DNA of 64,000 nucleotides. Origin: an uncultured Clostridia bacterium. Its GTDB lineage: Bacteria; Bacillota; Clostridia; Christensenellales; Borkfalkiaceae. The translations under genes and the position numbers were made by a program. A model generated the notes under the pieces. That model had not been told where the DNA came from. It worked only from the letters and a program-made list of their open reading frames with translations, and made no database searches. Below, one piece after another: positions 29,745 to 47,922 of the stretch (position 1 is its first letter; every line of letters begins with the position of its first letter). Location of the stretch: the NCBI GenBank assembly GCA_947630115.1, contig CANRGG010000006.1, positions 1 through 64,000 of the forward strand. Reading direction: 5' to 3'.

Positions 29745-30203
29745 TCAATCTTCCACCGTCAGCTGCGTGACGAGAATCACGACGTTATAGGCGCCCGTCT
29801 TATCTTTTACATATCTTGCCGTCGCGCCATCCACAAGAGTCTCCCTATCTGCCTCAGGTAAAATATATTTTCCGTCCTCATCAATTATATAATCGCCGCT
29901 TATGGCAGACCTAATGAAGTAGGACTGCACTGTTCCCTCCGAGGTGACAAGACCCGTTGCGACCCACGGCCCCGTGAGATTTCCCGACGAATCTTTATAC
30001 TGCTCTTCGTCGCTGTTCAACAAAAGCTCCTTGACGACTTCCGCCCGGACCGCGCGGCAGTTTGCCTCACCGACCCGTTTTTCCGCGTCGTCCAGCGCCC
30101 CCACGAAGAGCGGCACCGCGATCGCGACCAAAACCGCGATGATCGCGACGACGATCAGGAGCTCTGCGAGCGTAAAACCCTTTCTATATTTCCTTTTTAT
30201 CAT
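29745..30203 (-). CDS. Type IV pilin/pseudopilin-like protein with prepilin N-terminus
   Basis: MIKRKYRKGFTLAELLIVVAIIAVLVAIAVPLF class III prepilin motif. Confidence 0.88.
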   Translation of the reverse strand: MIKRKYRKGFTLAELLIVVAIIAVLVAIAVPLFVGALDDAEKRVGEANCRAVRAEVVKELLLNSDEEQYKDSSGNLTGPWVATGLVTSEGTVQSYFIRSAISGDYIIDEDGKYILPEADRETLVDGATARYVKDKTGAYNVVILVTQLTVED

Positions 30204-30234: not shown

Positions 30235-30693
30235 TTAAGGCTCCACGACGATCGCCTGTTCCACGGTCACCCGCACCACGACCTTATAGGTGCCGTTTTC
30301 CTTGTTCCAACCGCCGTTTCGAGAACTAATTATATTTTCTGCCTTGTTCAATTGCAAAGGCAAATCCGTCGGCTCTGTCTCGTTTCCTGCATCATCAACT
30401 TCTGCCGCGGCGATTTGCAAGTTGCTGACTTCGCCGTTCGCGTCCACTTCCGCATAGGCATACCAGGGTCCCTTCAATTCGCCGTCGGTTTTCCACTCGT
30501 CCTTCGTCTCCAACAAGATGGATTTCACGGCAGCTGCCCGGACCGCACGGCAGTTTGCCTCACCGACCCGCTTTTCCGCGTCGTCCAGCGCTCCTACAAA
30601 CAGCGGGACAGCGATCGCGACAAGCACGGCGATGATCGCAACGACGATCAAGAGTTCTGCAAGGGTAAAGCCCTTTCTGTTTCTTTTTTGCAT
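30235..30693 (-). CDS. Type IV pilin/pseudopilin-like protein with prepilin N-terminus
   Basis: MQKRNRKGFTLAELLIVVAIIAVLVAIAVPLFVGALDDAEKRVGEANCRAVRA, nearly identical N-terminus to neighbour. Confidence 0.88.
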   Translation of the reverse strand: MQKRNRKGFTLAELLIVVAIIAVLVAIAVPLFVGALDDAEKRVGEANCRAVRAAAVKSILLETKDEWKTDGELKGPWYAYAEVDANGEVSNLQIAAAEVDDAGNETEPTDLPLQLNKAENIISSRNGGWNKENGTYKVVVRVTVEQAIVVEP

Positions 30694-30770: not shown

Positions 30771-30813
30771 TGGAAAATGTTCATAGATTAGCTTAATCTA
30801 TGAACATTTTCCA
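30771..30813 (-). promoter_or_regulatory. Perfect 20-bp-arm palindrome (hairpin/operator)
   Basis: TGGAAAATGTTCATAGATTA-GCT-TAATCTATGAACATTTTCCA. Confidence 0.85.
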
Positions 30814-30873
30814 GCTTGGCGGCGCATAAAATATGAAAGTTCGGAAATTTTTTTGAAAAACAGGCGATTTTAC

Positions 30874-30902
30874 TTGACGGAAATCAAAGAATATGTTATT
30901 CT
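30874..30902 (+). promoter_or_regulatory. Sigma-70-type promoter
   Basis: TTGACG (30874-30879), 17-bp spacer, TATTCT (30897-30902). Confidence 0.6.
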
Positions 30903-30914
30903 ATAAATAGATTT

Positions 30915-30943
30915 TGTACATGGATTAAGCTAATCCATGTACA
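30915..30943 (+). promoter_or_regulatory. 13-bp-arm palindrome followed by T-run
   Basis: TGTACATGGATTA-AGC-TAATCCATGTACA-TTTTTTT. Confidence 0.85.
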
Positions 30944-31227
30944 TTTTTTTCGGCGGCCGATCCTCCAAAGGCCGTCTTTTTTATCGCAAAAAACAGCTCC
31001 CGCCCGCGAATGCGAAGGGAGCTGTTTCAATGGAGAGTAAAAAGTTCGCGGCTGGGACCGCAAATCTTTTTCGGAAAGGAAAGAAAATGGCGCTTTTTTG
31101 GGCCGCTTTTCCCTTTCATCTTACCGCAAACGCCGCCGCCCGTCAACCTACTCTTGCGTTTTTCGACTCTTCTCGAAAGACTTTGCGCGGTAGAGTGGAA
31201 AATTTTGACTCTACTGCCGGTAGATAC

Positions 31228-31255
31228 TTGACATTTCGGGTGTATTTGCTATAAT
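31228..31255 (+). promoter_or_regulatory. Sigma-70-type promoter of XRE gene
   Basis: TTGACA (31228-31233), 16-bp spacer, TATAAT (31250-31255). Confidence 0.75.
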
Positions 31256-31261
31256 AAAGTT

Positions 31262-31876
31262 ATGGAAGAACAGGACTCTCTCGCCGAAATTTTCGGTAAA
31301 AATATTACCCGTTTGAGAAAAATGGAAAATATGACCCAGCTCGAGCTTGCCGAGAAGCTCAATTACTCGGACAAGGCGGTCTCGAAATGGGAACAGGGGA
31401 ACAGTTTGCCCGACGTCCGCGTGCTCGTCCAGCTCGCCGATCTTTTCGGCGTCACCGTGGACGATCTCATCCGCGAGCACAAGGAAAAGACGGTCGTTTC
31501 CAAAAATACCAGGCTCCGCAACCGGTTCATCACCCTCATCTGTTCGGTCGGGATCTGTTGGCTCGTTGCGGTCTGCGACTTTGTTCTTGTCGGGATCTTT
31601 GCGCCCCAACTGAACTTCAAATGGCTCGCCTTCCTCTTTGCGGTCCCCGCTTCGGCGATCGTCATTTTGGTGTTCAGCTGTATCTGGCACTGGAAATGGG
31701 TGCGGATCATCTCCATCACCGTCCTCATCTGGACGAGTATCACCTGCGTCTACTTTCTCGCGCACGCATTGGGCGCGGATTCGAGCATTTGGCTCTTGTT
31801 TTTAATCGGCATTCCGCTCCAGATTCTGGCGCTTTTCTTCTTCGTCTGGCGCAAAGGAGCGCATTTCAGGGGGTGA
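31262..31876 (+). CDS. XRE-family HTH regulator with C-terminal transmembrane domain
   Basis: ITRLRKMENMTQLELAEKLNYSDKAVSKWEQGNSLPDVRVLVQLADLFGVTVDDLI then several TM helices. Confidence 0.92.
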   Translation: MEEQDSLAEIFGKNITRLRKMENMTQLELAEKLNYSDKAVSKWEQGNSLPDVRVLVQLADLFGVTVDDLIREHKEKTVVSKNTRLRNRFITLICSVGICWLVAVCDFVLVGIFAPQLNFKWLAFLFAVPASAIVILVFSCIWHWKWVRIISITVLIWTSITCVYFLAHALGADSSIWLLFLIGIPLQILALFFFVWRKGAHFRG

Positions 31877-31880
31877 ACTC

Positions 31881-33125
31881 ATGAAAAAACTTTCAACTCT
31901 TTCTTCCTCGCAGATCAATAAAAGGAGACGGTTTTTCAACGTGCTCTTCTGGACGATGGCGGTGCTTGCCATCATCTGTATCGTGGGATTTTTGTTCTGT
32001 ATCATCATGATGGGGCTCGGTTCGGGAAATCTCGTGATCTATGGGATGGTTTCGGCCTGCTTTTTCGCGGGGACCGCGGTCTTTGCGCTCTGCGCCTATC
32101 CCTTTTTCGGAAAGAGCGACAAGCTCGCCGTCGCCGAACTCGACGCCCTGGAGCGGGAGGACGATCTGTACAGCTTTTTCGTCGGAGAGGGGACCTTTGT
32201 GACCTTCCGGAAAGACGAGCTCTTTCTGCACGGCGAGCCGTACGATGAGATGGGCGTGGACGAGTACGGCAAGTATGGGATGATGCGCAAGAGAAGGACG
32301 CTCTCCGTTCCTTATTATGATATCAGATTTTTCTCGATCTGCACCCGCCGCCGTCCCGTGGACGCGGGCAACTGGAGTATCATCCTGCAGATCCCGGCGC
32401 GCTATTTCAACAAGGGCGCCGTGCGCGAAGCACGTCCCATCCTGCTCCAAACGGACGGCAAGGAACGACTCTATCTGCGTATGCGGGAACTGAAACTTTC
32501 CCCGGAGGGGGAGCTGCCGCCCGAGGCGCTGACCGCGGGACAGGTGACGCCGGAAACGCCGGAGACGGAGAAGAAAAAACCCGTCCGGAAAGCGCCCAAG
32601 AAAAAGGCGAAAAAGTTCACCCGTTTGAAGAAATTCGTGCTGGCCGATCAAAAAAGAAGGATGAAAGCGTTCATTTTGCTGGTGATCGGCGTGCTGTTTC
32701 TTGCGGGCGGGATCGTCGCTGCGATCTTCTGGGACGAGTCGGTCGGCGGCGTCATCGCGCTGGTCGGCGGATATATGGGCGTGCGCGCGCTGGTCGCCTA
32801 TGTGCGCGCCAAGGCGCAGTTCTATCTGTATGAGGAAGGCATTTATTACAGCGAGCCGTCGGGCGTGGACAACGTTTTCCTGAAATGGGAGGAGTTTTCC
32901 ACGGTGAAAACGATGGTGCGGGACAATAAGAACCGAATGCGCGTCCAATGCCCGTACGGGGTGTATGAATTCCCGGTCTTTGCGGGCGCGCTCGAGGAGA
33001 TCTTCGCGCTCCATCCCGAAAAAGAGGAGATCGTCCCGGAGGAGACGAAGGCGGAGGGGCCCGAAGGGCGGCCCGCCGAAAAAGCGGAGAAAAAGAAAAC
33101 GGGGAACACGGGGAACAAACGGTGA
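31881..33125 (+). CDS. Hypothetical membrane protein
   Basis: Two TM pairs; coding potential continuous; coupled to XRE gene upstream and DUF1653 gene downstream. Confidence 0.75.
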   Translation: MKKLSTLSSSQINKRRRFFNVLFWTMAVLAIICIVGFLFCIIMMGLGSGNLVIYGMVSACFFAGTAVFALCAYPFFGKSDKLAVAELDALEREDDLYSFFVGEGTFVTFRKDELFLHGEPYDEMGVDEYGKYGMMRKRRTLSVPYYDIRFFSICTRRRPVDAGNWSIILQIPARYFNKGAVREARPILLQTDGKERLYLRMRELKLSPEGELPPEALTAGQVTPETPETEKKKPVRKAPKKKAKKFTRLKKFVLADQKRRMKAFILLVIGVLFLAGGIVAAIFWDESVGGVIALVGGYMGVRALVAYVRAKAQFYLYEEGIYYSEPSGVDNVFLKWEEFSTVKTMVRDNKNRMRVQCPYGVYEFPVFAGALEEIFALHPEKEEIVPEETKAEGPEGRPAEKAEKKKTGNTGNKR

Positions 33126-37462: not shown

Positions 37463-37545
37463 AATATCATAGGTTTCTATGACATTTGTCATATATTTCA
37501 AGCGGAGGCGTTTTGGGGGTTCCGCGGGAAAAAGGGGAGAAGTCG

Positions 37546-40500
37546 ATGGGAAAAAGAGAACATCTTGACGAAGGATGGCACGAGATCAAAAACAAGCGGC
37601 GACCGAAAGTCCGGAAGGACAGGGAAAAGGGACCGCGCTTAAAGACCAAGCGCAAGATGAGGCGTTCGACGAAGATCGCAACGCTCTGTCTTGTCGTGTC
37701 GCTGCTCATCTGCGCATACAGTTTCGGGCTGGCGTTTTTCCGCGATCCTTCGCGCAATTCCGTCAATCTCGATTACGGTTCGGTCTCGAGAGAGGTCGAA
37801 AACGGCGAAGTTTATTCGGCGGAGGGCGGCTATTCGCCGATCGACATCTTCGCCCGGCTGAACTGGACCTTTTCGCGGCAGAAACGGTGGTACAGTGAGA
37901 TGCACGGCGTCGTCGATACCGTCATCCAGCAGGAGATCGAGACCTATAAACAGTACAACGACGGGATTTTGATCTCGGCGGATCTGACCCGCAGCTCGCT
38001 CGTGAGCGGCGCGAGCCAATTCTGCTATCTGAAAAACGAAGATCTCGTCATGTGGCGCAAGCCTGTAGGCGGTGCCTCGACCTATAACGGGCTCGGGACC
38101 GAATGGAAAACGGGGGAGCCCTACCGCATGATGACGATCAGCGGGGAGGACGGGTTCAAGGCGACGAACGGCCTGCCCGCCTACGAACTCAGCGTCTATG
38201 TCATCGAGGAGGAGACCGTCCTTCAAGCCTCCGAAGTCACCATGACCGAGGACGGACTCTATAAGATCACCTACGATCTGCGGCCGGATACCTGGCAGGA
38301 GGAGGACGAGAACGGGGCGATCGTCACGAAGGGCGCGACGGCGTACTATGCGAACCAGATGATCTTCACGGGCGGCCTTCCCGAAGCGCCCGTGTTCGAC
38401 GCTATCTCCGTTTCCTTTACTTATGACAGAAATTGGCGGGTCCACACCACGGAGATCCGCGAGTCTTACAACGCAAAATACGGGCCCATCGCGGCGGCAT
38501 GCGTCAGCACGTCCAAGACCGAATACGAATACGATACCGACCGGGCGGTCTCGGACGCCTATGAGAACTATTTCAAGCAGTATGTCAATTCTCCCGTCGA
38601 GAACCATCCGACGGAGAAGGAAGTGACGGCGCTCAACTGCCTTGCGGAGGCGTTTGGCTGCGTACTCACCGAGCCGACAAGTCTGAATGTCGATCTTACC
38701 CTCAACGATCGGCCGGTGAAGGGGGTCGTCAATCTTGATCTCGGCGGAATGGATCTTTCCGCGCTCGATCTTACCGCGGTCGAGGCGAAGGCGAAGATCG
38801 GCGCGCTGCGGCTCTGGGTGCAGGACGGCACGGCCTATGTCAACTACGGGGGACTGAAATTCCGCGTTGGGCTCGACGAGCTCATCTCGCTCTTCGGCGA
38901 CGCGGTGCAGCCCGCGGAAGGGGAGGACAGCGATTTGCTCGGCGCGCTCGCGGGCGGCGAATTCACCGTCGACGGCGACCGGGCGGAACTTTCTTCCCGG
39001 CTCCCGCTCGGGGACTTCGAACTTCCCGTCCGTTTTGTTTTCCGGCTGGACGAGGCGAAAACGGCCTCTTTGGAATGCGTCACGACCGAATTTTCCATTC
39101 AGGAGAAGCTGACGGTCGGCGCAAAACTCACCTTCGGCGACGAGATCCTCGAAGATCTCGAAGTCGCGGAGGAATATGCGGACATTTTGCCCTATGCAAG
39201 ATCGCTGGCCGAGCTCTTCGGCGGGGAGACGCTGCATGTGACGGCGGATTACGAGGCGGAAAACGTCTCGATCGGCGGCGGCTTCGATCTCAGGATCCAG
39301 GATGGCTTCGCGCTGAGCGGAGAGCTGACGGCGGAGCTGAACCTTCAGGGCATTACCCTCAAAAAGACGGTGACCGTCGGATATCTCGACGGCGTGATCT
39401 ATCTGGAACTCGACGGGATCAAACTTCGGGCGGACACGGAAGAGGCGATGGCGCTTCTTTCCTGGTATCTCGATCTTCCTTCGCTCTCCGTGGGGGAGAC
39501 CGATCTTTCCGAAGTTCTCTGCATGCTCCTTTCGGAGGAATTTGCGGGCAACTTCTCCTCGACGGAGAGCGAAAATACCCTCGTTCTTCTGGTCGAGGGA
39601 ACCGAACTTCTCCGCTCTTTCGGCGCCGATTTCGAACTCGGCGAGGTCAAACTTGCGCTCCGGGAGGGGGAACTTTCCGCGGAGGCGCTCGGCGCGAAGA
39701 TCTCGGTTCAACACGGCGAGCCCTTCTCGGTGGACACCGAGGGCTTCATCTCTATTCTGCCCTATGCGGAAGATCTCATCTCGCTGTTCGGGAACGATTA
39801 TCTGCGTCTCGGCGTCTCCTATACCGCCGAGGAGATCGGACTGTCTGTAACGGGACAGATCGACCTTAATCCCGCAACTGCCGCCGCAAAGGGCGCAGTG
39901 ACGCTCTCCTATCAGAGCTTCCAGAAAACGTTTGACGTTCAGTATGCAGCGGAGAAGGTCTATCTGGCGGCTGACGAATTAAAGATCTGCGTGCCCGTGA
40001 AGGACGCCGCCGATCTTCTGATCAAAGAATTGAATCTCTCCGCCGAAGATACCCCCGAGGCGAAAGAACTTCTCAACCGCGTCCTTGCGATGAACTTCGG
40101 CGAGCTTCTTTCGCTCAAAGAGAGCGGCGACGCGCTCTCCGTCCTCATCCACGGCACAAAACTTCTGGACGCGCTCGGCATTGGGTTCGAAGCGGGGGAA
40201 ATCGAACTTCGGATCTCCGACGCGCGGATCGACGTAACTGCATTTGGCGCCGAACTTTCGCTGGTTCCCGGCGAGGCATTTGCGCTCGACACGGAGGGCT
40301 ATCTCGACGTTCTTCCCTATGCCAAAGAGCTGATCGGTCTTTTCAAGAACGACGTGCTTGCTTTGCGGGCGAATTATTCGGGCGAAGCGCTTTCCATCGC
40401 GGCCGATCTTTCGCTTGATCTGAAAACGCTCACCGCCGCGGGCACGCTGGGGCTCGATTATAATTCGGCCCATAAAGATATCGGCGTGATCTACAAGGAC

Positions 40501-43500
40501 GGCGGGATTTATCTCTCGATCGACGGGCTGAAAATTTCGGCGAAGGTTGACGAGGCGATTGCGCTCGTTGGGCAGTTCATGGAAATTCCCGAGAGTGACG
40601 GTGAATCCAAGGACCTTTTGAAAGAGATTTTGACTCTGAATTTCAGCGAACTTGTACAGCTTTCGGAAGAGAATGATACACTCACCGCGGCAGTGAACGG
40701 GACTATGCTTTTGAACCTGTTTGGGCTGGATTTTGACCTTGGAACTGCGACCGTGAAGGTTTCGGAGGGCAAAGTTGATGTCGAGGTCCTTGGCGCGCAA
40801 ATTTCGATCACCGCAGGAAAGCCGTTTGACGTAGACACGACGGGTTACATCGACATTGTGAAATATGCGGCGACTGTCATCGAGATGATCCAGGGCGGTA
40901 TCCTGCGCGCGGACGTGAGCTATGAAACCGAAAATCTCGTGGTTGCAGGGGTGGTCGATTTTGAAATTGCAAGCTTGACTGCGAAAGCGAAACTTATACT
41001 TACATATAAAGAAGTAAGCAAGACTGCGGAAATCATCTACAAGGAGAATGCAATTTATCTGACCCTTGACGGCTTGAAGATTTCGGCGAAGGTTGACGAG
41101 GCAGTCGCACTCGTTGAACAGTTCATGGAGATCCCCGAGAGTGACGGCGAGTCCAAGGACCTTTTGAAGGAAATTCTTTCCCTTGACTTCGGCGAGTTTG
41201 TGCAGCTTTCGGAAGAGAATGACATCCTCACTGCGGCAGTGGACGGGCCTATGCTTTTGAACTTGTTCGGGCTTGACTTTGACCTTGGAACCTCGACGGT
41301 GAAGGTTTCGGAGGGCAAAATCGACGTTGAGGCCCTTGGCGCACATATTACCGTGACCGCAGGCGAGCCGTTTGAGGCCGACACGACGGGTTACATCGAC
41401 ATTGTGAAATATGCGGCGACTGTCATTGAAATGATCCAGGGCGGATATTTGACAGCCAACGTCAATTACACGACCGAAAATAAAAATCTCACGGTTGCCG
41501 GTACGGTCGACTTTGAAATTGCAAGTTTGACGGCGAAAGCGGAACTTACGCTTACATATAAAGAAGTAAGCAAGACTGCGAAGATCATCTACAAGGATAA
41601 TGCAATTTATCTCACGATCGACGGGTTGAAGATCTCGGCGAAAGTCGACGAGGCGATTGCGCTCGTTGGGCAGTTCATGGAGATCCCCGAGAGTGACGGC
41701 GAGTCCAAGGACCTTTTGAAGGAAATTTTGTCTTTGAACTTCGGCGACCTTGTGAACCTTTCGGAAGAGAATGACATCCTCACCGCGGCAGTGAACGGCA
41801 CAGCACTTTTGAACTTGTTCGGATTGGATTTTGACCTTGGAACTGCGACCGTTCAGATTTCGGAGGACAGAATTGACGTTTCCGCTCTCGGGGCGCAAAT
41901 TTCGATCACTGCAGGCGAGCCGTTCAGTGTTGAAACGGACGGTTATATCGACATCGTGAAATATGCGGCAACTGTCATCGAGATGATCCAGGGCGGGGTT
42001 TTGAAAGCCAACGTCAGTTACACGACCGAAAATAAAAACCTTGCGGTTACCGGCACGGTCGATTTCGAGATCAAGAGTTTGACGGCGAAAGCAACTCTCA
42101 CGCTCACTTACCAGGGTGCAAGCAAAACTGCGGAGATCATTTACAAAGACGGCGAAATTTTCCTCGCAATCGACGGCTTGAAGATCTCGGCGAAAGTCGA
42201 CGAGGCGATTGCGCTCGTTGGGCAGTTCATGGAGATCCCCGAGAGTGACGGCGAGTCCAAGGACCTTTTGAAGGAAATCCTTTCGTTGAACTTTGGCGAC
42301 CTTGTGAACCTTTCGGAGGAAAACGACACTTTGACGGCTACGGTGAACGGCACGGCACTTTTGAACCTGTTCGGGCTGGATTTTGACCTTAAAACCGCGA
42401 CCGTTCAGATTTCGGAGGGCAAAATCGACGTTGAGGTCCTTGGCGCACATATTACCGTGACCGCAGGCGAACCGTTCGACGCGGACACGACGGGATACAT
42501 CGATATTGTGAAATATGCGGCGACGGTCATTGAAATGATCCAGGGCGGCACTCTCCGCGTGGGTGTGAGCTATGAAACCGAAAACCTTGCGGTTACCGGC
42601 ACGGTCGATTTTGAAATTGAGAGCTTGACTGCGAAAGCGGAACTTACGCTTACGTATAAGGAAGTAAGTAAGACCGCGAAGATAATTTACAAAAATGGCG
42701 AAATTTTCCTTGCAATCGACGGGTTGAAGATCTCGGCAAAGGTCGAGGAAGCGATTGCGCTCGTCAAACAAGTCATGGGGGTATCCGAAAGCGATAAAGA
42801 GTCGAGAGACCTTTTGAAAGAAATTTTGTCTCTGAATTTTGGCGAACTTGTACAGCTTTCGGAAGAAAACGACACCCTCACCGCGGCAGTGGACGGGACT
42901 GCGCTTTTGAACCTGTTCGGGTTGGATTTCGACCTCGGCAAGGCAACCGTTCAGTTTTCGGAGGGCAAAATCGACGTTGAGGCCCTTGGCGCGCATATTA
43001 CCGTGACCGCAGGGAAGCCTTTCAGCGTTGAAACGACGGGATACATCGATATTGTGAAATATGCCGCGACCGTCATTGAGATGATCCAAGGCGGCGTGTT
43101 GAAGGCTAACGTCAGTTACACGACCGAAAATGGAAATCTTTCGGTTACCGGTACGGTCGATTTCGAAATCGAGAGTTTGACGGCGAAGGCGATACTCACG
43201 CTTACTTATCAAGGCGCGAGTAAGACCGCGGAGATCATTTATAAAGATAATGTAATATATCTCGCGATCGACGGGCTGAAAATCTCGGCGAAACTCAAAG
43301 AAGAAAAAGGCGAGGAAGCAGAGGTCGAGGAAGCGGTTGAACTGGTTGGGCAATCTATTGGGGTTTCTGAAAGCGATGAAGAGTCGAAGGATCTTTTGAA
43401 GGAAATCCTCTCGCTCGACTTCGGAAAACTTGTGCAGCTTTCGGAAAAAGATAATACCTTGACGGCTGCGGTAAACGGCACTGCGCTGTTGAACTTGTTC

Positions 43501-46500
43501 GGGTTGGATTTTGACCTTGGAACTGCGACCGTTCAGATTTCGGAGGGCCGGATTGACGTTGAGGCCCTTGGCGCACATATCACCGTGACCGCAGGCGAGC
43601 CGTTTGAGGCCGACACGACGGGTTATATTGATATTGTGAAATATGCGGTGACTGTCATCGAGATGATCCAGGGCGACGTTCTCCGCGCGGGCGTGAACTA
43701 CGAAACCGAAAATCTTGCGGTTGCAGGGGCGGTCGATTTTGAAATTGCAAGCGTGACTGCAAAAGCGAAACTTATGCTTACTTATCAAGGAGTAAGCAAG
43801 ACGGCAGAAGTTATTTACAAAGAAAATGCAATTTTCCTTGCGATCGACGGACTGAAGATTTCGGCGAAGATCGAGGAAGCGATCGCTCTTGTCGGAAAAA
43901 TTATGGATATCCCTGAGAGCGATGAAGAGTCCAAGGACCTTTTGAAGGAAATCCTCTCGCTCGACTTCGGAAAACTTGTGCAGCTTTCGGAGTCGGAAGA
44001 GAACGACACGCTTACCGCGGCAGTGAACGGGACTATGCTTTTGAACCTGTTCGGATTGAATTTTAACTTTGGAACTGCGACGGTGAAGATCTCGGACGGC
44101 AAAATCGACGTCGATGCCCTTGGCGCACATATTACCGTGACCGCAGGCGAGCCGTTCGATGTTGAAACGGACGGTTATCTCGACATCATGCCGGTGGCGA
44201 AGAAGATCGCGGAGATCGTCAGCGCGAAGGCGATCACGCTGCGCGGCGTCGTGACCGTCAAGGTAAATGAGGAGGAGATCGCCCTCGAGATCCGGAACGG
44301 CACGATTAGCTGGGCGGAGGGCTTCAAGTTCTATCTCGATGCAACGCTGTCCGCAGGCGGGACCGCGCACGATCTGAAACTCTACGCCGATTCGGAAAAG
44401 GTGAAGATCGTCTACGGCGAAACGGGGGCGGAGCTCGTCTTTGCAGATCTCGACGATCTCGAAGAGAAATTCCTCGATGTCTATGAAAGATTGCGCGAAA
44501 TCGTCGGAAAGGCGATCGTGACAAAGGACGGCGGAAATCCGCTGCCGAAGGCAGACTCGCTCTCGGAGCTTCTGCAAAGCGTTCTCGGAAAGATCGAGGA
44601 CACGGCCTCGAAGCAGGGCAGCGAGAGCCTCGCCCAGCTTTTGGAGGCGCTCAAAAACAGCGGCTTGCTGTCGGGCGCGGCGGACGGGCTCGCGAAAGAA
44701 GAAATTGGCAAAAAGATCGACTTTTCTAAAATTTTGAACGAACTCATGCTCGCCTCCTTGCGGGAAGAACAGGGCAGGATCGTCGTGAGCGCAAAGGGAT
44801 TGGAGCTCGGGCTCGATACCAATCTCGTAACACTCGACGAAACCCTTCCCAAAATGCTGCGGGCGGACGTCTCCTATTCGGGCGAGAACTTCTCTCTGAA
44901 ACGAAGCACGCTCTATCTCTGCGCGCCCAAGAGTTTCCCCGAAATGCCGGAGATCCCTTATCTCGGCTTTGAGGATTACTGCGAACTTCTCGATTTCCTC
45001 GGCGCGACGGCGCAGACCCTTGCGGAAGAGGACGTCGGATTGTCCCTTTCGGGCCAGGTCCTTTCGACGGCGCCCGAATATCGGGACGCGGGCGGTGTGC
45101 AGTATACGTTCGACGCGACGGTGAATTACTTCTCCGGCACGGAGACCGTAAACGGGAAGAAAGTCGGTAAGTTCCCCTTCACGATCAATCTTCAAAATAA
45201 GAGCGTCTCGGTCAATTCCGACCTCTATCTCAAAGTACATCTCACGCTTGAAAGTAAGGTCGAAGAGTGTCTCTATCTCGATCTTTACATCATGGATATG
45301 GATCCGAGCGGAAAGAGCGACGGAAAGCTCGACTTCTTCGTCTCCATTTCCAAATATAAGAGCGGAGATCCGAACTATCAGCCGCTCAGCTTCTATGCGC
45401 CCGCAAGCGAGGTCAAATCCCTTCTTTCGGCGGCGTGCATTTTGCTCGGCGTGGACAATGAGATCGTGCGCGATTTCCTGATCGAAACAGGATTGACGGC
45501 GGAGACCCGCGAGGAGCTCCAGGCGATCGGCGACAGCTTGCAGCTCGGCTCGATCATCTCGGGCCTGATCGGCGGAAACGAGGAGAAAGAGCCCGCGATC
45601 GCTCGCATTGCGGCAGAAGAGACTTTGAAAAAGAACTATCTCAAACAGTTTGCATTCGCGCCGGAGCGCGGGGAAGAAGGGAAGATCCTCGGCAACACCC
45701 TTTCGGTCGTCCTCAACGGGCCAGCGATCTATGGCAATGCCGACGCGAAAGATCTTGAGATCACCCTGCAAAAGGAAGGCGAGAGCTTTGTCTCCTCCCA
45801 TCTCACGGGGGTCAATCTTCAGAATGTGACCGCAGGCGAAAAGACCGTCTCGCTCGATCTCGACTTCACCTATGAAAAGGTTCCGGACAGCGACAAGAAG
45901 GCGTTGAGCGTCACATACAACTTCGACGGCTTGGAGCGGCTCATCAGTTCGATCGCAAAGAGCGCAACGCACGACGCAACGAACGAGGAGATCATCTCGG
46001 GCGAAGCGGAAGAACACGACTATGTTCTGAACAAGACCTACTATATTGACGGCAAAGCAAATGTTTCCGCACTTCTGTTCCTCAAAGCTGAGGTCAAGAT
46101 CATCGCGATCTCGGTCACGATCGACGAGGAGAACAAAGTCGCGGTCAATCTCCGTCTCGAATATGACGGCATTGTCGGCGTAATCAATGGTCACTCTACG
46201 GTCGATATCACGATCAAGGACGGCATGGTCTATATGAAGCGCGTCCAGACGACCTATTATGAGTTCCATCTTTTCCAGAGCAGTTGGCCGGAATACGATA
46301 CGCCCATTACGATTTATCGCGTGACGACGCTCGATAATTTCTTCACCGATATTCTGAAACATCTCGGCTATCTTCTCAATCTCACCGAAACGATCCAGAA
46401 CCAGATCGACAAAACCGAGCCCGCGCAGCCTCAGGACACCACGAGCACCGATTACGGCTCGCTTGTCTCGAAATATCTTAGCGGCTATTCCTGCACCCAT

Positions 46501-47922
46501 CAGGAAGGCGGGAAGGACACCTGGACGGTCAAAATGAACGGCAATGAGCTCACGGACGGCGTTTTGAGCGAGATCGGCATTACCTTCACGGCGGACCCGG
46601 ACGATATCGTCAGAGATCTGCACGTTTCGACGAGCCTTTACTCGTTCGTCAATCTCGAACTCGATCTCAACTGGAAGAACCCGAGATCGGCGAAGAATTA
46701 TACGGGCGACAGGACCGATAAAACGTTTGCCGACAAGCTCGCGGATGAGGAAAACGGGATCGGCGCGGGGCTCAAAATCCACGACTTTACGCAGGAGAGC
46801 TTCGTCGAGTTCGTCGAAGGGACGATCGGCTATTCCTATCGGAAATACAATGGCGGCGGAACGGAAAGTCTTGGCTCTGCGCACATCTACTATAAGACGA
46901 ACGACAAAAAACTTCTCAACGAGCCGAAGGCGCCCGATCTGAAAAAATATGACGACGGGCATGAGTTCTATCTCGAATGGGACGCAGGGTTCTGCCATGT
47001 GGGGAGCGTGCTTCCGGACAATGCCCAGAACACCGCGACGCAGAAACCGTACCTTTATGATGTCACGTTTGTTACCGACAAGGAGCAGGCGGGCGATTTG
47101 ACGGGAAATTACAGCTGGCAGCAAAGCGGCGAGAAATCCACCTTTACGGCGAAGATGAAGTACAATTCTCAGGTCAAGTTCTCCGCAAATGGCAAGGAAG
47201 TCAAGAGCCAGAAGATTACGCAAAATGAGACGATCGTACTTCCCAAGGCTTCGGATTATAAAGACGGCGCGGCGGGCATTTGGAACCTCGACTCGTTCAC
47301 GATCGAAGAAGCGCAGTTTACGGCGTTCTATCCGCTCACGGTGCGCTATATAAGCGTGATCGCCTATAATGCGAGTTCGTCGCACCCCGCGAATACGTCT
47401 TACGACGTTGAAGTGAAAGACAGCGATTACACGCTGATCCAGCCGACGGCGAACGGATACACCTTCCTTGGTTGGTTTACGAAGGATGGCGGAGATTGGC
47501 GCGAGGCGAAGGAGATTTCGAGTACGACGGTGATTGACGGCAAGCTGACGCTCGAAGTTGAAGCGTTGTGGATGAGCGATTTCAGCATTGCGATCGAAGC
47601 AAATAGAACTTCGAAATGGCTTACATTTACGCATACAATTAAGGGTACGATTTCGGGCGGACAGCTCGTTGGAGCATTTGCAAACGAGGCAACAGTTTCG
47701 ACCGAATACAAATTCTATGTCGATAATGATCAAAATTACACGGAAGGGAAGAAGGACGCAGGAAAGACATTTAATAACTACACAAAATCCTATACGGATA
47801 GTTCTATTAAGAACAGTGTATTAACGACCGCACCTTGTGCGCATGTCGTAGCGACACTTACATTTCGTTGCGGGGACATCATAATTTCGAGAACAGCTCA
47901 TAATTTCCATTTCTATCGTTAA
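37546..47922 (+). CDS. Giant anchored/secreted repeat protein (about 3458 aa)
   Basis: SD GGGGAGA before ATG 37546; basic N-terminus then TM STKIATLCLVVSLLICAYSFGLAFF; long tandem repeat domain; C-terminal GYTFLGWFT InlB-B/Flg_new-like module. Confidence 0.93.
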   Translation: MGKREHLDEGWHEIKNKRRPKVRKDREKGPRLKTKRKMRRSTKIATLCLVVSLLICAYSFGLAFFRDPSRNSVNLDYGSVSREVENGEVYSAEGGYSPIDIFARLNWTFSRQKRWYSEMHGVVDTVIQQEIETYKQYNDGILISADLTRSSLVSGASQFCYLKNEDLVMWRKPVGGASTYNGLGTEWKTGEPYRMMTISGEDGFKATNGLPAYELSVYVIEEETVLQASEVTMTEDGLYKITYDLRPDTWQEEDENGAIVTKGATAYYANQMIFTGGLPEAPVFDAISVSFTYDRNWRVHTTEIRESYNAKYGPIAAACVSTSKTEYEYDTDRAVSDAYENYFKQYVNSPVENHPTEKEVTALNCLAEAFGCVLTEPTSLNVDLTLNDRPVKGVVNLDLGGMDLSALDLTAVEAKAKIGALRLWVQDGTAYVNYGGLKFRVGLDELISLFGDAVQPAEGEDSDLLGALAGGEFTVDGDRAELSSRLPLGDFELPVRFVFRLDEAKTASLECVTTEFSIQEKLTVGAKLTFGDEILEDLEVAEEYADILPYARSLAELFGGETLHVTADYEAENVSIGGGFDLRIQDGFALSGELTAELNLQGITLKKTVTVGYLDGVIYLELDGIKLRADTEEAMALLSWYLDLPSLSVGETDLSEVLCMLLSEEFAGNFSSTESENTLVLLVEGTELLRSFGADFELGEVKLALREGELSAEALGAKISVQHGEPFSVDTEGFISILPYAEDLISLFGNDYLRLGVSYTAEEIGLSVTGQIDLNPATAAAKGAVTLSYQSFQKTFDVQYAAEKVYLAADELKICVPVKDAADLLIKELNLSAEDTPEAKELLNRVLAMNFGELLSLKESGDALSVLIHGTKLLDALGIGFEAGEIELRISDARIDVTAFGAELSLVPGEAFALDTEGYLDVLPYAKELIGLFKNDVLALRANYSGEALSIAADLSLDLKTLTAAGTLGLDYNSAHKDIGVIYKDGGIYLSIDGLKISAKVDEAIALVGQFMEIPESDGESKDLLKEILTLNFSELVQLSEENDTLTAAVNGTMLLNLFGLDFDLGTATVKVSEGKVDVEVLGAQISITAGKPFDVDTTGYIDIVKYAATVIEMIQGGILRADVSYETENLVVAGVVDFEIASLTAKAKLILTYKEVSKTAEIIYKENAIYLTLDGLKISAKVDEAVALVEQFMEIPESDGESKDLLKEILSLDFGEFVQLSEENDILTAAVDGPMLLNLFGLDFDLGTSTVKVSEGKIDVEALGAHITVTAGEPFEADTTGYIDIVKYAATVIEMIQGGYLTANVNYTTENKNLTVAGTVDFEIASLTAKAELTLTYKEVSKTAKIIYKDNAIYLTIDGLKISAKVDEAIALVGQFMEIPESDGESKDLLKEILSLNFGDLVNLSEENDILTAAVNGTALLNLFGLDFDLGTATVQISEDRIDVSALGAQISITAGEPFSVETDGYIDIVKYAATVIEMIQGGVLKANVSYTTENKNLAVTGTVDFEIKSLTAKATLTLTYQGASKTAEIIYKDGEIFLAIDGLKISAKVDEAIALVGQFMEIPESDGESKDLLKEILSLNFGDLVNLSEENDTLTATVNGTALLNLFGLDFDLKTATVQISEGKIDVEVLGAHITVTAGEPFDADTTGYIDIVKYAATVIEMIQGGTLRVGVSYETENLAVTGTVDFEIESLTAKAELTLTYKEVSKTAKIIYKNGEIFLAIDGLKISAKVEEAIALVKQVMGVSESDKESRDLLKEILSLNFGELVQLSEENDTLTAAVDGTALLNLFGLDFDLGKATVQFSEGKIDVEALGAHITVTAGKPFSVETTGYIDIVKYAATVIEMIQGGVLKANVSYTTENGNLSVTGTVDFEIESLTAKAILTLTYQGASKTAEIIYKDNVIYLAIDGLKISAKLKEEKGEEAEVEEAVELVGQSIGVSESDEESKDLLKEILSLDFGKLVQLSEKDNTLTAAVNGTALLNLFGLDFDLGTATVQISEGRIDVEALGAHITVTAGEPFEADTTGYIDIVKYAVTVIEMIQGDVLRAGVNYETENLAVAGAVDFEIASVTAKAKLMLTYQGVSKTAEVIYKENAIFLAIDGLKISAKIEEAIALVGKIMDIPESDEESKDLLKEILSLDFGKLVQLSESEENDTLTAAVNGTMLLNLFGLNFNFGTATVKISDGKIDVDALGAHITVTAGEPFDVETDGYLDIMPVAKKIAEIVSAKAITLRGVVTVKVNEEEIALEIRNGTISWAEGFKFYLDATLSAGGTAHDLKLYADSEKVKIVYGETGAELVFADLDDLEEKFLDVYERLREIVGKAIVTKDGGNPLPKADSLSELLQSVLGKIEDTASKQGSESLAQLLEALKNSGLLSGAADGLAKEEIGKKIDFSKILNELMLASLREEQGRIVVSAKGLELGLDTNLVTLDETLPKMLRADVSYSGENFSLKRSTLYLCAPKSFPEMPEIPYLGFEDYCELLDFLGATAQTLAEEDVGLSLSGQVLSTAPEYRDAGGVQYTFDATVNYFSGTETVNGKKVGKFPFTINLQNKSVSVNSDLYLKVHLTLESKVEECLYLDLYIMDMDPSGKSDGKLDFFVSISKYKSGDPNYQPLSFYAPASEVKSLLSAACILLGVDNEIVRDFLIETGLTAETREELQAIGDSLQLGSIISGLIGGNEEKEPAIARIAAEETLKKNYLKQFAFAPERGEEGKILGNTLSVVLNGPAIYGNADAKDLEITLQKEGESFVSSHLTGVNLQNVTAGEKTVSLDLDFTYEKVPDSDKKALSVTYNFDGLERLISSIAKSATHDATNEEIISGEAEEHDYVLNKTYYIDGKANVSALLFLKAEVKIIAISVTIDEENKVAVNLRLEYDGIVGVINGHSTVDITIKDGMVYMKRVQTTYYEFHLFQSSWPEYDTPITIYRVTTLDNFFTDILKHLGYLLNLTETIQNQIDKTEPAQPQDTTSTDYGSLVSKYLSGYSCTHQEGGKDTWTVKMNGNELTDGVLSEIGITFTADPDDIVRDLHVSTSLYSFVNLELDLNWKNPRSAKNYTGDRTDKTFADKLADEENGIGAGLKIHDFTQESFVEFVEGTIGYSYRKYNGGGTESLGSAHIYYKTNDKKLLNEPKAPDLKKYDDGHEFYLEWDAGFCHVGSVLPDNAQNTATQKPYLYDVTFVTDKEQAGDLTGNYSWQQSGEKSTFTAKMKYNSQVKFSANGKEVKSQKITQNETIVLPKASDYKDGAAGIWNLDSFTIEEAQFTAFYPLTVRYISVIAYNASSSHPANTSYDVEVKDSDYTLIQPTANGYTFLGWFTKDGGDWREAKEISSTTVIDGKLTLEVEALWMSDFSIAIEANRTSKWLTFTHTIKGTISGGQLVGAFANEATVSTEYKFYVDNDQNYTEGKKDAGKTFNNYTKSYTDSSIKNSVLTTAPCAHVVATLTFRCGDIIISRTAHNFHFYR
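40525..44165 (+). repeat. Seven tandem coding repeats of 546-576 bp (182-192 aa)
   Basis: Start glycine codon of DGLKISAKVDEA at 40525, 41071, 41623, 42175, 42721, 43273, 43849; strongly conserved at DNA level; diverged copies precede. Confidence 0.92.

Follow-up and report, generated by a model that had tools for sequence, protein, structure and literature searches.

The window, the whole 64-kb stretch of DNA analysed here, belongs to a metagenome-assembled Clostridia genome of 1.61 Mb (G000). Between two minus-strand prepilin genes and a plus-strand gene for an XRE regulator lies an intergenic region framed by two long palindromes, and the locus contains the following features:

29745..30203, minus strand: second prepilin gene, 31 bp downstream of the first on the same strand and probably co-transcribed with it (N_methyl, E 9.1e-9)
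30235..30693, minus strand: prepilin gene under the putative switch, 152 aa, GFTLAELLIVVAIIAVLVAIAVPLF (N_methyl, E 3.5e-9; TIGR02532 over cut-off)
30771..30813, minus strand: putative proximal recombination site; as the segment now lies (OFF), it reads toward the pilin gene as a perfect 20-bp stem and then T6, resembling a terminator
30792..30929, no strand: putative invertible segment of ~137 bp, site centre to site centre, with both orientations seen in homologous copies (G000:C49, G036:C33)
30874..30902, plus strand: sigma-A-type promoter TTGACG-17-TATTCT inside the segment, directed away from the pilins (OFF)
30915..30943, plus strand: putative distal recombination site with the same 7-bp core in inverted register and perfect 13-bp arms
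30944..30985, plus strand: T-run and GGCGGCC...GGCCGTC-TTTTTT hairpin that, as read from the sequence, would end the OFF transcript

The site is a 29-bp palindrome with 11-bp arms around a 7-bp core. In the proximal copy (30778-30806) the core is TAGCTTA, and the perfect arms extend to 20 bp (30771-30790/30794-30813) around a 3-nt loop, forming the longest perfect hairpin of the window. The distal copy is also terminator-like, its hairpin being followed by T7 along the direction of the OFF transcript. The palindrome pattern was found twice in the window against 0 expected from 100 dinucleotide shuffles of the window, and an Rfam search of the 64 kb gave no match. An initial annotation, made from the letters alone, had read the gene neighbourhood and this anatomy correctly: both palindromes exist as it wrote them, the 20-bp extension of the left one is perfect, and the outward T-runs and the plus-strand promoter are present. 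The same annotation described the palindromes as covarying. The two compensated positions do not, however, reflect covariation in a single RNA. They distinguish two types of half site, a pattern that would arise because inversion of the segment swaps half sites between the two palindromes.

The XRE gene starts at 31262 and has a perfect promoter (TTGACA-16-TATAAT, 31228-31255); between this gene and the promoter segment lie hairpins with T-runs. The plus-strand region 31262-33125, encoding the XRE regulator with probable C-terminal membrane helices and then a membrane protein, is apparently independent of the switch. Further along the window, an open frame of 3478 aa (37486-47922, plus strand) contains many tandem repeats that are nearly identical to one another and probably encodes a large surface protein.

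The genome-wide search for the site proposed in the initial annotation returned 10 palindromes in G000: four complete pairs, on contigs C5, C7, C21 and C6, each spaced exactly 137 bp, and partial copies at contig ends (the ends of C6, C1 and C36, and the start of C49). The annotation had allowed that its reading would fail if the two palindromes of the window were the only ones, with no transcription and no protein binding; more copies lie in G000, and many more in its congeners. Contigs often break at the cassettes because these are repeated. The total for G000 is at least six switch copies; possible joins of the C6 and C1 ends with C35, C36 and C49 are ambiguous.

Wherever the adjoining gene of a G000 copy is assembled, it is a prepilin just downstream of the switch, and a further cassette pilin on C35 breaks off within its leader at a contig break. 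The cassette prepilins begin with a near-identical leader and N-terminus, their first 45 residues being 82% identical on average, while the remainder is divergent (mean 35% identity). Their place among the type IV pilins is indicated by the prepilin cleavage/methylation motif (PF07963/TIGR02532) together with T2SSE and T2SSF family genes in the genome. Since G000 encodes PilB/PilT-type ATPases and a PilC-type protein, assembly of these pilins is plausible. The pilin adjoining the pilus machinery on C44 of G000 has no site upstream.

Evidence for inversion comes from comparison of homologous copies. In G036 (CANRLK, the 'Lapin-011' Clostridia bin, presumably from rabbit), the copy on C33 has its whole interior reversed with the outer flanks unchanged, and each of its two sites is a hybrid, combining one half-site type with the other. 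When the OFF copy C18 was flipped in silico between the palindrome centres, it matched G036:C33 at 163/166 positions; flipped OFF copies C7 and C24 matched at 161/166, whereas unflipped OFF copies were identical at only about 100/167. Similarly, G000:C49, which lies at a contig end with one of its sites visible, has a hybrid proximal site and a promoter (TTGACT-17-TAAAAT) aimed at the pilin (ON). In most copies the promoter is directed away from the pilin, and both orientations thus occur between homologous copies, G036:C33 and G000:C49 standing against the rest. From these assemblies, in which the orientations are seen at homologous loci rather than at one locus, we infer that the 137-bp promoter segment probably inverts.

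The element is best interpreted as a promoter switch that inverts and so makes the expression of type IV pilin genes phase-variable, a reading to which we assign a probability of about 0.93 on the sequence evidence. A tyrosine recombinase acting in trans would recombine the two inverted 29-bp sites and flip the 137-bp segment. In the OFF state, with the promoter pointing away from the pilin operon, a short transcript would meet the distal hairpin with its T-run, while read-through toward the pilin should be stopped at the proximal site by the 20-bp perfect stem with T6. After inversion the promoter would face the pilin genes (ON); in G000 and G036, half of each palindrome and its flank would be exchanged at the same time, the stem would become shorter and mismatched, and termination would be relieved. 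At least six cassettes with different pilin bodies would then form a switchable pilin repertoire. Beyond the observed sites, promoter-like sequence, opposite orientations of homologous copies and associated recombinase family, we infer that the segment would recombine in living cells, that its orientation would affect transcription, that termination would have the predicted strengths and that the switch would serve a surface or antigenic function.

The terminator component of the switch was assessed by predicted folding. The proximal site of the window folds at -25.9 kcal/mol in the OFF orientation and at -11.1 after in-silico inversion, and across G000 and G036 the predicted hairpin toward the gene ranges from -25.6 to -26.0 kcal/mol OFF and from -9.5 to -11.4 ON. 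The ON proximal stem is weaker because the hybrid site carries a mismatch and is without the inner TGGAAAA flank. In these two genomes, inversion is thus predicted to swap half of the 20-bp hairpin-plus-T6 terminator that faces the pilin gene. As a family-wide rule, terminator exchange was rejected, being absent or weak in other members, and was retained for G000 and G036: the predicted hairpin changes little in CANRGR (Lapin-021 contig, L126; -22.1 vs -20.4), and in G025 (CANQFA) the strong predicted hairpin lies at the distal site instead. The proposal in the initial annotation that the palindromes are leader hairpins or attenuators survives in part: the hairpins are probably terminators in one orientation. 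A pure attenuator reading was rejected, as it misses the promoter segment found both ways round between putative recombinase sites.

Further copies lie in congeners. G036 has nine, with core TAGTCTA or TAGCTTA, and G025 has three, with core TACGTTA and a spacing of 139 bp. The genes after the sites encode prepilins or other secreted or membrane proteins, and nearly every site pair encloses promoter-like -35/-10 elements with a 17-bp spacer, the flanking sequence being varied. In G036:C74 (L028:1-234) the distal site is truncated, with about 15 bp missing, which would lock the switch OFF unless it is an assembly fault. In G012:C21 (L076:1794-2500) a promoter segment directed at a pseudopilin gene comes after a recombinase fragment, and the 7-bp cores of the two sites no longer match, making this a likely locked-ON relic. 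Outside these genomes, contig CANQJU010000126.1 (L127:101-255), from a bin labelled Bacilli, has a site pair with core TATATTA around a promoter-like sequence, possibly adjoining a lipoprotein gene; either the system is widespread or the contig is mis-binned.

The cores point to the type of enzyme involved. Of 34 neighbouring site pairs taken without any core-match requirement, 29 have fully matching 7-bp cores in inverted register, and none in direct register. The cores vary between species (TAGCTTA, TAGTCTA, TACGTTA, TAGCGTA, TCGTGTA and TATTTTA among them), and the arms differ within a pair. A tyrosine recombinase whose strand exchange has a 7-bp overlap would require such core identity.

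A tyrosine recombinase family of about 300 aa (PF00589 and Phage_int_SAM_3), present in 17 of the 37 genus members, is a candidate partner enzyme of these sites by association. In the alignment of the family, the catalytic R-K-H-R-H-Y set is invariant at R142, H247, R250, H273 and Y283 and nearly so at K165; the two G000 members (C2, C41; PF00589 E 1.6e-25 and 4.3e-25) keep the catalytic residues. For 10 of 30 recombinase genes, a site lies no more than 500 bp beyond the stop codon, at a distance of 16-60 bp in nine of the ten, against 0 such sites in 0.7 Mb of shuffled DNA. Sites occur in 13 of the 17 genus genomes with the recombinase, compared with 2 weak matches in the 20 without it (Fisher 5e-5, phylogeny ignored). 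Where the assembly extends beyond a recombinase-adjacent site, a putative invertible promoter comes next and then a surface gene, which encodes a prepilin in G036:C8, a lipoprotein-like product in G002 and an ABC transporter in G034. At the last of these loci (G034:C3, L097:2109-2464), four sites in two successive pairs, with cores TTATCCA and TCGTGTA, sit between the recombinase and the ABC transporter gene, perhaps as two independent switches in series.

In G000, no site could be detected next to either recombinase gene, and action in this genome would therefore have to be in trans. A real switch operated in G000 by another enzyme, a serine recombinase or an XerC/D-like protein, would agree with these two candidates being without an adjoining site; serine recombinases are present in 7 of 8 genomes tested, and G000 encodes such enzymes along with other integrases. 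We nevertheless consider this improbable, since an identical 7-bp core between inverted 11-bp arms is the layout expected of tyrosine recombinases and the tyrosine recombinase family is associated with the sites across the genus.

Less probable still is that the segments are fixed, having been copied in both orientations, and that the palindromes now act only as transcription terminators. Some copies do decay, as the truncated distal site of G036:C74 and the recombinase fragment with non-matching cores of G012:C21 illustrate. Against fixed cassettes, the perfect core match is kept in most pairs while arms and cores diverge between species, and the aligned recombinases, both of G000 included, retain their catalytic residues.

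The initial annotation had also raised two other readings, to which we give hardly any credence. One was a MITE or similar small mobile element, ~173 bp long and bounded by hairpins; that several copies are dispersed, equal in length and inverted at their ends speaks for it. They are found in front of pilin genes, however, and the homology between those with an assembled gene runs on through the leader into the pilin coding start, which argues against an independent insertion; the interior of G036:C33 is inverted with unchanged flanks. No target-site duplication was seen by eye at the copies, and neither copies away from gene starts with such duplications nor empty sites were seen. The other reading, paired operators through which the neighbouring XRE regulator would control the pilins and itself divergently, draws on the long palindromes in a divergent intergenic region beside an HTH_3 protein and fails because the XRE gene has its own 12/12 promoter, because sites recur at many loci, beside pilins included, without an XRE neighbour or the XRE/membrane gene pair, and because operators would need neither inverted 7-bp core identity nor reversed interiors.

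For the promoter switch, the states of the pilin cassettes with readable orientation in these metagenome-assembled genomes were counted. The ON/OFF numbers are 1/5 in G000, 1/8 in G036, 1/3 in G025, 0/3 in G012, 0/2 in CANQCN and 1/0 in CANRGR; the ON copy of G025 adjoins a recombinase gene (L100). This census agrees with rare ON states. G000, G036 and G025 each have a single ON copy among those resolved, and one-pilin-at-a-time expression is possible. We do not claim a strict one-ON rule: 1/6, 1/9 and 1/4 are also likely under independent switching, and G012 has 0 ON among 3 pilin copies. A fuller scheme of dispersed pilin antigenic variation, in which one trans-acting tyrosine recombinase would flip many near-identical cassettes, with effectively one pilin ON at once and the recombination site serving as a split terminator that locks OFF, is tentative, and we put it at well below even odds.

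Promoter inversion for fimbriae is classical, and in Bacteroides fragilis many polysaccharide loci each have an invertible promoter inverted by Mpi, a serine recombinase. The pilin cassettes would resemble that system in that many loci of one surface structure each have their own invertible promoter, and differ in that Mpi is a serine recombinase and its targets are capsule loci rather than pilins. The E. coli fimS element is an invertible promoter of a pilus subunit gene whose orientation, set by the FimB/FimE tyrosine recombinases, determines ON or OFF (PMC7446863, PMC5903667, PMC2784873). The pilin cassettes would share with it a promoter within a short invertible segment, a tyrosine recombinase and a pilus subunit target. 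However, fimS is a single locus of 314 bp that serves chaperone-usher pili and has its recombinase genes alongside, whereas here at least six dispersed 137-bp switches share common sites, which are long palindromes, their targets are pilins of a type IV-like kind, and the candidate recombinase genes are not linked to them. In C. difficile, one tyrosine recombinase, RecV, acts on several dispersed segments of 154-230 bp (cwpV, flg, cmrRST), and an intrinsic terminator has been proposed at the repeat junction in the cwpV OFF state (PMC2784873, PMC5903667, PMC7446863). The likeness lies in the host class, Clostridia, in the putative layout of one recombinase for several switches and, for cwpV, in an OFF-state terminator, which is strongly predicted here in G000 and G036. 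In cwpV, though, the promoter lies outside the segment, while here it lies inside, with a terminator half predicted to be swapped too in G000 and G036, and the targets are a paralogous pilin set. Gut invertons found with PhaseFinder/PhaseFinderDC likewise include invertible promoters near surface genes and tyrosine recombinase links in Clostridia, an example being group 139, which is made up mostly of Clostridia and has a link to tyrosine recombinase group 35 (PMC11892184). Pilins, the putative switch targets here, are not mentioned in the main text of that study (PMC11892184). The literature searched contained no paralogous set of type IV pilins in which each member has a separate copy of one and the same invertible cassette.

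If confirmed, the system would mean that uncultured gut Clostridia could vary their surface pili gene by gene. It would also bring to light a tyrosine recombinase family whose sites combine a common arm sequence with a dozen or more different 7-bp cores, a variety useful for studying how tyrosine recombinases tolerate core changes. Together, an inverting promoter and a terminator divided at the crossover point would amount to a simple double lock.
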